Below are positions 3,385-18,118 of a stretch of DNA of 18,397 nucleotides, in pieces. The notes beneath the pieces are model-generated. The model was not told the origin of the DNA. It saw only the letters and a program-made list of their open reading frames with translations, and made no database searches. A program made the position numbers and the translations under genes. The DNA comes from Acidobacteriota bacterium (GTDB taxonomy: Bacteria > Acidobacteriota > Terriglobia > Bryobacterales > Bryobacteraceae). The DNA is taken from the NCBI GenBank assembly GCA_947505565.1, contig CANNLB010000001.1, positions 1 through 18,397 of the forward strand, given 5' to 3'. The first letter of the stretch is position 1, and each line of letters starts with the position of its first letter.

Positions 3385-4098
3385 ATGATCCAGCCATTGA
3401 GCATAAGTACGACTGCCGCCGATTTCAAACTGCCGCGGCAAATCACCCTTTCCGACGCCAGGATTGAAGCTTTCGGCAGAGTTTATGAAGCAAATCGAAC
3501 CCAGTTTGCGACCCGCGAGACCGCCGAGGCGCTAGCCTCACTTCTAGGCGGCAAAGTATCCGACCTTTCTGAGCAGTGGGGCGCTGGCAAGGTTTCCCCG
3601 CTCTACCAGATCGATCTTTCGGGAGGGGTCTCCCTCAACGCCGGTCTTTTAGCGGACCGCTTTCAACGCCACGGGACGGCGGCAGCCATTCAAATGACAC
3701 AGGAGGAAGTGGCGCATATCTTGACACCCGTGACCAACGTGGTTGCCAGTGCCGCGTTCAGGGCAAATTCCGCCTCTGTATCCCCTTCCCCGGTAGGTTC
3801 ATCCGCCGCGCCTGGCTCACTGACACTGAAGGCCACCTCCGCGACGGAAAAATCTAAACTGGCCGACGCGGCAATACAGTTCGAATCTCTTTTGATGGCG
3901 CAAATCCTCAAGAGCGCGACACCGGAAGGTGAGGACGGCCTATTATCGGGTGCTGGTGACAGCTCGACCCAGTCCATTTATCAGATGGCCCTGGAGAGCT
4001 TCGCAGCAGTGCTCGGTCAGCAGGGTGGCCTTGGGCTGGCTGGCACCGTGACCGACCAGCTCAAGTTGAGCCACCCTACAACTTCCATCCGCGGCTAG
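3385..4098 (+). CDS. FlgJ-type rod-binding protein with an unrecognised N-terminal region, no muramidase domain
   Basis: Residues about 157-227 match the FlgJ rod-binding domain: KLADAAIQFESLLMAQILKS, then a Gly/Ser-rich turn and IYQMALESFAAVLGQQGGLGLA. In FlgJ this domain caps and scaffolds the growing rod in the periplasm. Unlike E. coli FlgJ there is no C-terminal peptidoglycan hydrolase; instead about 120 residues precede the rod-binding part (AFGRVYEANRTQFATRETAEAL, LLADRFQRHGTAAAI), plus a Ser/Ala/Pro linker (about 123-155). I do not recognise that N-terminal region. No clear signal peptide, consistent with export by the flagellar apparatus. It follows flgI by 8 bp, the usual flgJ position, with AGGAG just before the ATG. 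Its 3' end overlaps fliS on the other strand by 23 bp. Confidence 0.8.
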   Translation: MIQPLSISTTAADFKLPRQITLSDARIEAFGRVYEANRTQFATRETAEALASLLGGKVSDLSEQWGAGKVSPLYQIDLSGGVSLNAGLLADRFQRHGTAAAIQMTQEEVAHILTPVTNVVASAAFRANSASVSPSPVGSSAAPGSLTLKATSATEKSKLADAAIQFESLLMAQILKSATPEGEDGLLSGAGDSSTQSIYQMALESFAAVLGQQGGLGLAGTVTDQLKLSHPTTSIRG

Positions 4099-4570
4099 CG
4101 GAGCTGGTCGCTTCGTCCCGGTAATCGAGGTACGGATTGGTGCTTGCCACCACGTTCCATTCCTCAAACGCGCTCGGCGCAGCCGACACCGGGGCACTTC
4201 CTTCGAGCGCGTTGCAGACGTCCTTCCAGTTGTCGAGTAACAAGGTTAGCGACGTTTCCACGGTGGCAAGCGTTTCGGGCTTCGCTCGTGCGTGGGCGTC
4301 GATCAAGATCGCCTGGAGGGAGCCGTAAATGCTGCGGCGTTTGCTAGTTTCAGCGGTCCCATCGGCTTTTAGACTGATGATCAACTCAGATAGGATGTCC
4401 AGCAATCGGTTTACTGCACGAGCTCTTCGCCGCACATCGTTTTCGGTCAGGGACTGGCGAATCGCCCCAATGGAGGCAACAGCCTGCTCCATCAGGATTA
4501 AGGTAAGCCCGACCGGCGACGCCGCGTAAATCCGATCCTCAAGCAATGTGGTGTTGGAGTAGGGGTTCAT
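4076..4570 (-). CDS. fliS: Flagellin export chaperone FliS
   Basis: FliS binds the C-terminal segment of flagellin in the cytoplasm, preventing early polymerisation and delivering it to the export gate. The start at 4570 gives the family's typical beginning MNPYSNTTLLEDRIYAASPV, followed by LTLILMEQAVASIGAIRQ, a helix with LLDILSELIISL, and LTLLLDNWKDVCNAL. A longer frame opens at 4639, but the AGGAA immediately before 4570 and the conserved MNPY support the shorter one of 164 residues. The C-terminal 40 residues (after ALEG) are low in conservation. The gene is reversed relative to all its neighbours and converges on the flgJ-like gene with a 23-bp overlap. Usually fliS sits beside fliD; here it is some 14 kb away from it. 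Confidence 0.88.
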   Translation of the reverse strand: MNPYSNTTLLEDRIYAASPVGLTLILMEQAVASIGAIRQSLTENDVRRRARAVNRLLDILSELIISLKADGTAETSKRRSIYGSLQAILIDAHARAKPETLATVETSLTLLLDNWKDVCNALEGSAPVSAAPSAFEEWNVVASTNPYLDYRDEATSSASRGWKL

Positions 4571-4588
4571 GGTTCCTGGTCGGTCTAT

Positions 4589-4615
4589 GTATCGCAAATC
4601 CGGCTGAATCGTAGA
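4589..4615 (-). promoter_or_regulatory. Possible weak sigma-28-like promoter for fliS
   Basis: Read on the minus strand: CTCTA, a 15-bp spacer, then TGCGATAC. The -10 resembles that of the other candidate late promoters here (especially TGCGATAT at 15070), but the -35 fits poorly compared with CTAAA. Transcription would begin near 4582, leaving a leader of about 12 nt with AGGAA inside it. Inference; weaker than the five other sites. Confidence 0.35.
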
Positions 4616-4662
4616 GACAAAACATCCTCGGAGGGCCAAAAAAACCGCGCAGACTTCTCCCT

Positions 4663-9174: not shown

Positions 9175-9945
9175 ATGTCAACCATGCAGTGTCAGCTAAC
9201 CTACGAACCGCAATCGATCGGGAACGGCGTTGATCGGGAGTCGTTAATTATTGAGCACCTGCAGCAGGTAAAGTGGATTGCCACCCGTCTGCACGAGCGA
9301 ATGCCGGAGTCGACGAATCTCGAGGATTTGATCTCGATCGGGGTAATCGGCCTAATTCAGGCCGTCGATAATTTTGATGCTTCCCTTAACGTGAAGCTAA
9401 AGACCTACGCGGAGTTTAAGATCCGGGGAGCTATTCTCGATAGCGTCCGCGGGATGGATGGCATCGGCTCTCATCACCGCAAAAAAGTCAAGACTATTCA
9501 AACGGCGATTCAGACGCTGCAACACAAGCTAATGCGTCAGCCGACCGAACCGGAAATCGCCACCGCGCTCGGCATTTCACTGAGTGAATATTACGACTGG
9601 CTTATCGAAGTGCGCGGGGTCCGCATCGGCAGCCTGGATGCCGAAACACCCGAAGGCAGCAGTTTCATGAGCCTCGTCGCCGACCCGAAGGCGCACACAC
9701 CCGAGCACCAAATGCAAAAGTCCGAGCTGGAGCGTCAGATTGCCGCAGCCGTCAGCTCCATGCCCAAGGCTGAACAAACCGTGCTTGACCTCTACTACGA
9801 CAAAGAGTTGAATCTGCGGGAGATTGGGCAGGTTATGAATCTGCACGCTACCCGCATCCACCAGCTCAAATCGCAGGCTATTCTTCGCCTGCGAGCCCAC
9901 CTCACCGAAGCCTGGCCCGGCGCATTGTCAATACTTGGCGTTTGA
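9175..9945 (+). CDS. fliA: Flagellar sigma factor FliA (sigma-28)
   Basis: This sigma-70 family factor (256 residues) directs RNA polymerase to late flagellar promoters. Region 2 covers about 24-95 and includes NLEDLISIGVIGLIQAVDNF and TYAEFKIRGAILDSVRGMD. Region 3 follows with HHRKKVKTIQTAIQTL and RQPTEPEIATALGIS. Region 4 (about 195-250) contains AEQTVLDLYYDKELNLREIG and RIHQLKSQAILRLR, which would read the -35. The FliA/WhiG subgroup is indicated by this layout, the lack of region 1.1 and the surrounding genes. The start could be 9175 or the ATG at 9184; neither has a strong ribosome-binding site. Its likely anti-sigma factor FlgM is encoded 760 bp downstream, and several candidate target promoters lie within this window. 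Confidence 0.95.
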   Translation: MSTMQCQLTYEPQSIGNGVDRESLIIEHLQQVKWIATRLHERMPESTNLEDLISIGVIGLIQAVDNFDASLNVKLKTYAEFKIRGAILDSVRGMDGIGSHHRKKVKTIQTAIQTLQHKLMRQPTEPEIATALGISLSEYYDWLIEVRGVRIGSLDAETPEGSSFMSLVADPKAHTPEHQMQKSELERQIAAAVSSMPKAEQTVLDLYYDKELNLREIGQVMNLHATRIHQLKSQAILRLRAHLTEAWPGALSILGV

Positions 9946-10251: not shown

Positions 10252-10635
10252 ATGACTCTCACTATCATCGGCCCATTCTTATTCGGTATCTTCGTCTTGA
10301 TCATCTGCGCCCTCATCTGTCGATTTCTGCCGAGCTTACTGCGTAGGCGTCGACAGAAGCGAGTCAAAGCGAGAGGCCCGCGGCGTGCCGAGTCGATCCG
10401 ATCCATCCGAGCCTCGCTGACAGACATCTACCACCAGTTAGAAGATTCTCCAGTGGAGGACTCCGGCCCGCAGAAGAAGTCCGCGATCGGCATTCTCTAT
10501 CGCTGTGGCATACCCGGCGCTGATATCGCCGAGCAGCTTCGGTTGAGCAGAAGCGAAGTCGATCTAACGATAAAGGTCGACCGTCACAGGGTACAGCGGA
10601 AGGTTCAGGAACGTGGCGTTACCCACTCTTTATGA
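10252..10635 (+). CDS. Small membrane-anchored protein with a helix-turn-helix-like tail, SwrB/DUF2802-like
   Basis: 127 residues. One membrane segment (about 5-28, IIGPFLFGIFVLIICALICR) is followed by a strongly basic stretch (31-48, RRRRQKR and RGPRR) that would place the rest in the cytoplasm. The C-terminal part (about 78-110) reads AIGILYRCGIPGADIAEQLR then LSRSEVDLTIKV. This resembles the tail of DUF2802/SwrB-type proteins, with an IAEQL-x-LSRSEV helix-turn-helix-like motif. Those genes lie next to flhF/fliA or sigD in other bacteria; SwrB of Bacillus promotes flagellar export maturation. FliO, also small and single-pass and often next to fliN, is the alternative, but the tail argues against it. 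AGGAAA precedes the ATG. Function is inference. Confidence 0.7.
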   Translation: MTLTIIGPFLFGIFVLIICALICRFLPSLLRRRRQKRVKARGPRRAESIRSIRASLTDIYHQLEDSPVEDSGPQKKSAIGILYRCGIPGADIAEQLRLSRSEVDLTIKVDRHRVQRKVQERGVTHSL

Positions 10636-13786: not shown

Positions 13787-13814
13787 CTAAAGAAAGAGGC
13801 CGAAAGTTCGATAA
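13787..13814 (+). promoter_or_regulatory. Sigma-28-like promoter ahead of the 67-codon ORF
   Basis: CTAAA (13787-13791), a 15-bp spacer and TTCGATAA (13807-13814). Compared with the enterobacterial FliA consensus (TAAA, 15 bp, GCCGATAA), the -35 is exact and the -10 matches 6 of 8. Expected transcription start near 13821, only about 5 nt before the ATG at 13826. Confidence 0.65.
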
Positions 13815-13825
13815 GAAGTCCTACC

Positions 13826-14029
13826 ATGCATTCGATCAAATTCCAGCCGATGGAGCAGTCGAAGGAAAAGAGAATTTCCTTCGGAGCTGCTTCCGACCAC
13901 GTCGAGATCACCCTGCTAATTCGGGAAACGACGAGCGCTCTCGACGCCGGATGTATGTTCTCTGGCCATCGGATCCAGTTGGCCGCTCGATTACTCCACC
14001 ACCTGGAGCTCAGGGTAAACGAGAAATAA
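13826..14029 (+). CDS. Orphan 67-residue protein behind a sigma-28-like promoter
   Basis: I do not recognise this product. The frame starts at 13826, or possibly at the ATG at 13850. It has a basic N-terminus (MEQSKEKRISFG), a central hydrophobic strand-like stretch (HVEITLLIRETTSALDAGCM) and a C-terminal helix (IQLAARLLHHLELRVNEK). It is not CsrA or FliW, the genes that often follow flgL. It has no signal peptide or membrane segment. Its 3' end overlaps the minus-strand fliM-like gene by 20 bp. A strong sigma-28-like promoter immediately upstream argues that something here is transcribed; it may be the protein or a small RNA. The expected leader of about 5 nt leaves no room for a ribosome-binding site unless the second ATG is used. 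Confidence 0.5.
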   Translation: MHSIKFQPMEQSKEKRISFGAASDHVEITLLIRETTSALDAGCMFSGHRIQLAARLLHHLELRVNEK

Positions 14030-17092: not shown

Positions 17093-17138
17093 GGCTGGGT
17101 CTAACCGGCAAGGTCTGCTAACAGAAAATCACCCAGCC
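17093..17138 (+). other. Structured RNA element after motB: 8-bp perfect hairpin with an inner stem
   Basis: GGCTGGGT (17093-17100) pairs perfectly with ACCCAGCC (17131-17138). Within the 30-nt loop, TCTG (17114-17117) pairs with CAGA (17122-17125) around CTAA. A small hairpin CGTC-5-GACG lies a little upstream (about 17064-17076). No good T-run follows, so a classic terminator is doubtful. It may be the 3' end of the motB message or a processed RNA. This sits in the 272-bp gene-free stretch 17022-17293, which otherwise holds only the fliC promoter and leader. Confidence 0.4.
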
Positions 17139-17182
17139 GCATTTCGTCGTACGTTTCGAAGCGTAGCTCTATTTTTCCGAAT

Positions 17183-17210
17183 CTAAAAGTCGCAATTTGT
17201 TTCGAGATAG
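17183..17210 (+). promoter_or_regulatory. Sigma-28-like promoter for flagellin fliC
   Basis: CTAAA (17183-17187), a 15-bp spacer and CGAGATAG (17203-17210). The GATA core fits the FliA -10, the first three bases do not. An AT-rich stretch (ATTTTT) just upstream could act as an UP element. Expected start near 17217, giving a leader of about 77 nt. Confidence 0.6.
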
Positions 17211-17239
17211 TAGGCGTTCCCAAAAAGAAAACCTGATTG

Positions 17240-17283
17240 CTCCGAAAGCGAGAGCCAGGAAATTAAAACCAACCCTTTCGGAG
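17240..17283 (+). promoter_or_regulatory. Leader hairpin masking the fliC ribosome-binding site
   Basis: CTCCGAAAG (17240-17248) is perfectly complementary to CTTTCGGAG (17275-17283), a 9-bp stem closing a 26-nt loop. The right arm contains the first GGAG of the Shine-Dalgarno run GGAGGAG (17280-17286), which lies 7 nt before the ATG. The loop carries CAGGA (17256-17260), a second GGA. Two GGA motifs, one at the ribosome-binding site, are the layout of CsrA-controlled flagellin leaders; that link is inference. Confidence 0.6.
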
Positions 17284-17293
17284 GAGAAACATC

Positions 17294-18118
17294 ATGTCGT
17301 ATTCAATTCAGACCAATGTGAGCTCGATCATGGCTCAGGAAAACCTGCGGGTTAACGGCGACTTTCAGAGCCGTACGATTAACCGCCTGACCTCGGGTTA
17401 TCGCATCAACTCGTCCGGTGACGACGCTGCCGGCTTGGCTGTCGCCAATAAGCTCCGCAGCGGCAACGCCGAACTTCAGCAGGGTGTTCGCAATGCCAAC
17501 GACGGCATCAGCACCCTTCAGATCATCGACGGCGGCCTGAACAATATCTCCAAGATCCTGGACCGCTTGAAGACCCTCGCCACTCAGTCGGCTTCCGCCA
17601 CCTTCGGTGGTGACCGCACGACCGTCGACAACGAATTTCAAACCCTGCTCGGCGAAATTGATCGCCAGTCCGCTAGTATCGGACTCAACACGGGCGGTGC
17701 GAGTGCGGTCTCGCTCAGTGTCTACATTGGCGGCGGAAACAACCAAGCGAACTCGAAAGTGACGGTTGATCTGAGTGCGGCGCAGTCCGACTCGACCGGC
17801 TTGGGCCTCGCGAGCATCGCAGTCCTCACCGGGGCAGGCGCACTTTCAGCGCTCACCGCCATTGATGCGGCAACCGCAACGCTCGGCCAATCCCAGGGCT
17901 CTGTCGGTATTGGCCAGAGCAACCTGGAGTACGCTGTTCAGTTGGCGCAGTCGCAGATATCCGGCTTCTCCGCCGCCGAGTCCCGCATTCGCGACGCCGA
18001 TATTGCCGCTGAAGCCGGCAACCTTAGCAAGTCCCAGACCCTGCAGCAGGCTTCGGTGGCGGCGATGTCCCAAGCCAATTCTGCTCCGCAGGCCCTGCTC
18101 GCGCTTTTCCGCGGCTAA
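17294..18118 (+). CDS. fliC: Flagellin FliC, short form
   Basis: Flagellin is the filament subunit. The 274-residue product keeps both conserved ends: NVSSIMAQENLRVN, INRLTSGYRINSSGDDAAGL and NANDGISTLQIIDGGLNNIS at the N-terminus, and ESRIRDADIAAEAGNLSKSQ, then TLQQASVAAMSQANSAPQAL, LALFRG at the C-terminus. Between about 135 and 195 there is only a small Gly/Ser/Ala-rich D1 extension, so surface domains D2/D3 are absent. This short type is common outside the enteric bacteria. It has the strongest ribosome-binding site in the window (GGAGGAG), its own sigma-28-like promoter, a leader hairpin and a terminator. Codon choice appears more uniform than in its neighbours (many GGC, CTC/CTG, CGC), as expected for an abundant protein. 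Confidence 0.97.
   Translation: MSYSIQTNVSSIMAQENLRVNGDFQSRTINRLTSGYRINSSGDDAAGLAVANKLRSGNAELQQGVRNANDGISTLQIIDGGLNNISKILDRLKTLATQSASATFGGDRTTVDNEFQTLLGEIDRQSASIGLNTGGASAVSLSVYIGGGNNQANSKVTVDLSAAQSDSTGLGLASIAVLTGAGALSALTAIDAATATLGQSQGSVGIGQSNLEYAVQLAQSQISGFSAAESRIRDADIAAEAGNLSKSQTLQQASVAAMSQANSAPQALLALFRG

Follow-up and report, generated by a model that had tools for sequence, protein, structure and literature searches.

The window, by which we mean the whole stretch of 18 397 nt analysed here (positions 1 to 18 397 of contig CANNLB010000001.1, from the acidobacterial assembly GCA_947505565.1), carries close to its end a flagellin gene whose product matches Pfam Flagellin_N (2.4e-26) and Flagellin_C (4.8e-19). 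The preliminary description had drawn attention to the leader of this gene, where a stem of 9 bp would enclose part of the Shine-Dalgarno (SD) run. The sequence confirms that the two 9-nt arms pair fully and that the SD run and a CAGGA are placed as described (Table 1). A weak local hairpin over the SD, UUUC-GGAGGA-GAAA, resembles the GUUUC-AAGGAGA-GAAAC of same-genus flagellins.

Table 1. Features of the flagellin leader and related genes in the window
Feature	Position	Strand	Basis
fliS, flagellin export chaperone, non-adjacent to flagellin	4076-4639	-	Pfam FliS 1.6e-14
Sigma-28-like factor, FliA, likely user of the promoter	9175-9945	+	Pfam sigma-70 regions 2, 3, 4
Candidate FliA (sigma-28)-type promoter, TAAA-N15-nnnGATA	17184-17209	+	Pattern search
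Competing hairpin using the 5' arm, excludes the reported stem	17232-17259	+	In the lowest-energy ViennaRNA fold of 17215-17323
5' arm of the 9-bp stem, CTCCGAAAG	17240-17248	+	Sequence
CAGGA	17256-17260		Sequence
Upstream GGA, context CCAGGAAAT	17258-17260	+	Sequence
3' arm of the 9-bp stem, CTTTCGGAG, overlaps the SD	17275-17283	+	Sequence and energy model
Weak local hairpin UUUC-GGAGGA-GAAA over the SD (4 bp)	17276-17289	+	Pair probability ~0.02 in the ensemble
SD run GGAGGAG	17280-17286	+	Sequence
Flagellin gene, 274 aa, start ATG at 17294	17294-18118	+	Pfam

The promoter pattern, built on the FliA (sigma-28) consensus, occurs twice in the window against 0.13 matches expected, and two matches were reached in none of 200 shuffles. 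Of 178 flagellin leaders only 10 contain a similarly strict pattern, and therefore the FliA-type pattern is no general mark of flagellin genes. Judging from its position, transcription would start near 17216, which would place both arms of the stem within the mRNA. The FliA-like gene owes its name to its context and is also found in the corresponding clusters of two other genomes, G021 and G126. The second match to the pattern (13788-13813, +) precedes an ORF of 67 aa (13826-14029, +), both of them sitting between flgL and a fliM/N-like gene, and an ORF of 127 aa (10252-10635, +) with an N-terminal hydrophobic stretch and no Pfam match lies behind a fliN-like gene. A coupling of flagellin synthesis to FliS had also been considered; the fliS gene is on the opposite strand, at a distance of about 12.7 kb, so this coupling has no positional support.

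Occurrence, folding and conservation of the 9-bp stem

When the 3' arm was held fixed and the part upstream of it was dinucleotide-shuffled, an SD stem of at least 9 bp appeared in 19 of 3000 shuffles (P = 0.006). Among 176 flagellin leaders, the window leader included, 9 bp was reached in three, and of the 16 gene starts of the window that of the flagellin alone has such a stem. The whole window contains 7 perfect stems 9 bp or longer whose loops span 3-60, and five block-shuffled copies of it contain 6, 3, 3, 3 and 9. The 9-bp stem is thus uncommon for a given leader, yet the number of such stems across the window is at the level of shuffled sequence.

Folding predictions do not set the leader apart either. 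A region of 131 nt around it is no more stable than its shuffled versions (z = -0.19, 82 of 200 being equally stable), and the unpaired probability of the SD core, 0.40 against a median of 0.42, ranks 79th among 171 leaders. In the energy model, the reported stem has a probability between 0.24 and 0.92, depending on which of 24 sets of transcript ends is chosen, since the same 5' arm is taken by a competing hairpin (probability 0.03-0.72 across 24 segment choices). The SD had been pictured as buried; what remains of this picture is that the stem can form over the SD, but the accessibility of the SD is ordinary and another hairpin competes for the arm. The sole match of positions 17100-17400 in Rfam at a permissive threshold was to a CRISPR repeat, below threshold (E = 0.39, 21.6 against 37 bits), and was judged to be due to chance.

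An alignment of the leaders of related genomes had been proposed as a check. The closest flagellins found are two from G126 (78% and 75% identity over length), followed by those of G021 and G204 (71%) and of G203 and G210 (70%); G205 and G211, congeners of G203, G204 and G210, have similar leaders and were added to the comparison. The longest Watson-Crick stems involving the SD region measure 4 and 6 bp in the two leaders of G126 and 4 bp in each of G021, G203, G204, G205, G210 and G211, and the range for all 25 non-window leaders compared is 3-6 bp. The alignment of the eight close leaders contains no counterpart of the 5' arm, and the arms show neither conservation nor covariation there. A conserved SD-sequestering hairpin is therefore not found at the distances available, i.e. 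at about 78% flagellin identity and below, which is the outcome that the preliminary description had itself named as refuting its proposal. Since the contig scan and the search of 257 genomes of the order gave no nearer relative (very near genomes having possibly been excluded), a stem kept only within the species or genus would go unseen.

SD-sequestering leader hairpins are a known general type. The window leader is like them in that its SD can pair with a complementary arm upstream, and unlike them in that no conservation of the stem is seen and no ligand is known for it; it is a candidate switch at most. Absence from the eight close leaders speaks against the initial proposal that a hairpin switch controls fliC translation. 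One version of such control would need no protein: pairing of 17240-17248 with 17275-17283 would hide the SD, formation of the hairpin 17232-17259 would exclude that stem, and folding order, temperature or ribosome traffic would set translation. The sharing of the 5' arm by two structures that swap on small changes of transcript ends fits this version, as does the rarity of a 9-bp SD stem in a single leader. We nevertheless regard it as quite improbable, not only in view of the relatives lacking the stem, but also because the alternative state pairs part of the SD as well and because RNA often has alternative folds close in energy. As a regulatory device, the hairpin most likely does not function.

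csrA, fliW and the flagellin leaders of the order

A search of the genome for csrA and fliW, suggested together with the idea of CsrA/FliW control, was positive for both. Contig C79 of the same assembly carries fliW, csrA and a flagellin gene, in that order and on one strand (L033:1-2397); the csrA ORF has 105 aa, with a C-terminal extension past the matched domain. The assembly is 58.89% complete with 1.76% contamination, and the assignment of C79 and the window contig to one genome rests on binning. Among the 257 genomes of the order, csrA is found in 172 (171 above the family cut-off) and fliW in 173, the two lists, compared by eye, differing only by G111. In 48 genomes picked for their flagellin matches (a set that leaves out G013, G022 and G033 despite such matches), 40 have both genes and 8 have neither. 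By set difference, 27 of the 195 genomes with a flagellin match have no csrA; the leaders of these 27 were retrieved for the comparison. Neither gene was found in G021, G203, G204, G210, G096 and G025, which are 92-97% complete and contain relatives of the window flagellin.

Flagellin leaders were collected from among the flagellin matches listed, giving 184 leaders from 147 genomes. Six with mis-called starts were dropped, including the sole leader of G089, and 178 were kept; doubtful starts remain in a few (e.g. G195, G148 and one of G253), and the set includes G057 and G058, both outside the order. The two sets of leaders from csrA+ genomes used for the counts below (141 and 147) contain the window leader. 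Among 141 csrA+ leaders, 52 enclose the SD GGA in a stem of 4 bp or more (flank-swap control: mean 8%, maximum 15%); among 30 csrA- leaders, 2 do so (control: mean 3%, maximum 17%). Lowering the threshold to 3 bp gives 79 of the 141 csrA+ leaders (control 25%) and 7 of the 30 csrA- leaders (control 9%), so that some csrA- leaders do have an SD hairpin. The UUUC-GGAGGA-GAAA of the window is not covered by the counting rule, under which the 5' side of the GGA may be separated from the stem by no more than 2 nt. One of the two csrA- leaders with the longer stem comes from G002, a same-genus assembly that is only 83% complete, and its missing csrA may therefore be a gap. When one leader is taken per genus, stems of at least 4 bp are seen in 16, 16 and 14 of 54 csrA+ leaders (three draws; control 6-7%) and in 2 of 12 csrA- leaders; counted by genus, the contrast between the two groups is weak.

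Upstream of the SD, the best hairpin has a GGA in its loop in 52 of the 147 csrA+ leaders, where 20 shuffles gave a mean of 11.1 and a maximum of 20; for csrA- leaders the count is 4 of 31 (shuffles: mean 1.6, maximum 5). The distance between the two GGAs is 22-26 nt in 48 of the 74 csrA+ leaders having both sites; having a GGA at 18-28 nt from that of the SD, on its 5' side, is nevertheless not rare, being seen in 7 of 30 csrA- leaders and, at a background place, in 24 of 178. The leaders with the two-hairpin GGA form include those on contigs C5 (L034:1506-1562) and C79, the two other flagellin leaders available from the assembly. In a further 18 of the 147 csrA+ leaders, e.g. L011 (G019), L148 (G036) and L157 (G062), the loop of the upstream hairpin has AAGA or ATGA in place of GGA; the AAGA type accounts for 15 leaders from 7 genera and the ATGA type for 3 from 3 genera, and 1 of 31 csrA- leaders is of the AAGA type.

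The two-hairpin form was then described on an alignment of 45 csrA+ leaders, selected for having the SD core AGGAG, with at most three per genus. Its structure was named by hand, the SD helix being taken from row G000_L034 and the upstream helix set in the six-base-loop register of rows such as G133_L222; the upstream GGA hairpin of row G000_L001 lies outside this register. In this structure 66.0% of cells are paired (none of 500 shuffles as high; slid versions at most 51.3%), and the covariation score is 0.303 against a shuffled mean of 0.161 (again none of 500 as high; slid versions at most 0.181). The structure and register were set on the same 45 sequences and, therefore, the slid control flatters the two-hairpin form. 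Two other measures do not stand out: 10 pairs are changed on both sides, a number reached by 89 of 500 shuffles, and the 50 cells changed on both sides are equalled by the version slid by +1. RNAalifold predicted only 3 pairs on the csrA+ leader alignment, probably because the hairpin registers differ between rows.

A covariance model of this form gives 44.5 bits to the C5 leader and 29.7 bits to the C79 leader, both of which were in the training set. In a search of 42 sources, the four best untrained same-genus leaders scored 43.8-47.5 bits, being near copies of trained rows, and five further leaders, also close kin of trained rows, 19.6-31.3 bits. For the csrA- genus g34, 10 of 14 loci were searched (L060, L161, L164, L165, L170-L172 and L175-L177) with no match to E 5; two other csrA- leaders match weakly (G200, 17.5 bits, E = 0.27; G025, 12.4 bits, E = 2.5). 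An illustration from a genus outside the training set is provided by G126, which has both csrA and fliW: the model gives 30.7 and 28.0 bits to the leaders of the two flagellins close to fliW-csrA and has no match to those of the two window-type flagellins. For the window itself, a scan for matches to E 10 returned none at the flagellin leader, and with filters off this leader obtained 1.6 bits, from the SD hexamer only. Such comparisons support CsrA/FliW control, as a prediction, for the other flagellins of the assembly and of the order.

Readings of the window leader

Does this prediction extend to the window flagellin? In Bacillus subtilis, the hag leader, which belongs to a CsrA/FliW partner switch, has two CsrA sites (review PMC7652899). 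The window leader resembles it in having GGA in two places, one of them in the SD, and in coming from an assembly with csrA and fliW; it differs in that the best upstream hairpin found does not present the upstream GGA and in lacking the AnGGA motif, and the C5 and C79 flagellins fit the hag system far better. The 5' UTR of Campylobacter jejuni flaA has two predicted stem-loops with A(U/A)GGA (PMC6692469). A two-hairpin, two-GGA layout is seen in many csrA+ flagellin leaders of the order but is not apparent in the window leader. The same source gives AnGGA as the core motif of CsrA sites: the A at -2 is missing from all three GGAs of the window (CCAGGA, TTCGGA and GGAGGA), and is present at the SD GGA of 96 of 140 other csrA+ leaders. 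Since 24 of 30 csrA- leaders have it too, this letter is not diagnostic.

It could be argued that the leader is a degenerate member of the CsrA type, in which the cell's own CsrA would bind the GGAs at 17258 and 17280/17283 and block the SD until relieved by FliW. The presence of both genes in the assembly agrees with this, as do the position of the upstream GGA, whose distances of 22 and 25 nt to the SD GGAs fall on the csrA+ spacing peak, and the weak SD hairpin UUUC-GGAGGA-GAAA that could form. We consider this unlikely, however, given that the leader fails the covariance model, as do the window-type leaders of G126 in a csrA+ genome, and that the best local upstream hairpin of the window leader has no GGA in its loop and leaves the upstream GGA unpresented. 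None of the window GGAs has the A at -2, for what this letter is worth, csrA and fliW were not found in the six genomes named above that hold relatives of the window flagellin, and the window contig and the csrA contig may not come from one genome. The idea of CsrA/FliW control fits the surroundings, where the two genes are present and GGA hairpins are common in the csrA+ leaders of the order, but is not supported for the leader in which it was conceived.

The genes of the window are syntenic with those of G021:C260 and G126:C386, with a regulator followed by flhA, fliA, flgK, flgL, motAB and the flagellin. In the same-genus genome G017, flgL, motAB and the flagellin have no counterpart within the 20 kb around flhA and flgK has no clear one, and a window-type flagellin was found in none of 18 other same-genus genomes searched (E <= 1e-72). 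Accordingly, the cluster either represents a second system in the genome or lies on a misbinned contig. Base composition is not decisive on its origin: the GC content is 0.574 for the window, 0.614 for C5 and 0.626 for C79, and the tetranucleotide correlation with the window is 0.942 for C5 and 0.908 for C79. One may imagine a single cell with two flagellar systems, the C5 and C79 flagellins being under CsrA/FliW and the window flagellin, free of CsrA, being held by a new SD stem opposed by the anti-sequestering hairpin 17232-17259; we give this little credence.

The account that we find reasonably probable is that of an ordinary sigma-28 flagellin leader, belonging to a second flagellar cluster type outside the CsrA-type leader family and bearing a lineage-specific stem. 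The gene would be a late flagellin gene transcribed from the FliA-type promoter with a leader of about 75 nt; several weak structures that exclude one another would cover part of its strong SD, as much as is usual in flagellin leaders of the order, and the 9-bp complementarity would be peculiar to the lineage and most likely accidental. Computation shows that the close leaders examined do not have the stem, that the window leader has no match to the CsrA-type model, and that it is the other flagellins of the assembly that have CsrA-type leaders, together with fliW-csrA; that the promoter is used, that the stem arose by accident and that CsrA control is absent is what we infer. Counting against this account are the per-leader P of 0.006, the GGA spacing on the csrA+ peak, the resemblance between UUUC-GGAGGA-GAAA and the SD hairpin of same-genus flagellins, and the distance of the nearest relatives.

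A sturdier by-product of the analysis is that csrA and fliW co-occur in the order and that many of its csrA+ flagellin leaders carry two covarying GGA-loop hairpins. As a prediction, this extends the flagellin checkpoint of Bacillus and Campylobacter to a group represented chiefly by metagenome-assembled genomes; in the open-access library searched we found no description of these flagellin leaders. The csrA- genomes and those with the second flagellin type constitute a natural experiment on which flagellins escape the checkpoint.

Two observations concern such csrA- genomes. In genus g34, many members have flagellins, and among the members listed only G094 has csrA and fliW. In G203-G205, G210 and G211 (L131-L133, L138 and L153), where csrA was not detected, a leader hairpin of the form CGGC-loop-GCCG is kept while its loop varies (AGGAT, GGGA, AGCT, GCGAA), which looks as if the site decays after loss of csrA.
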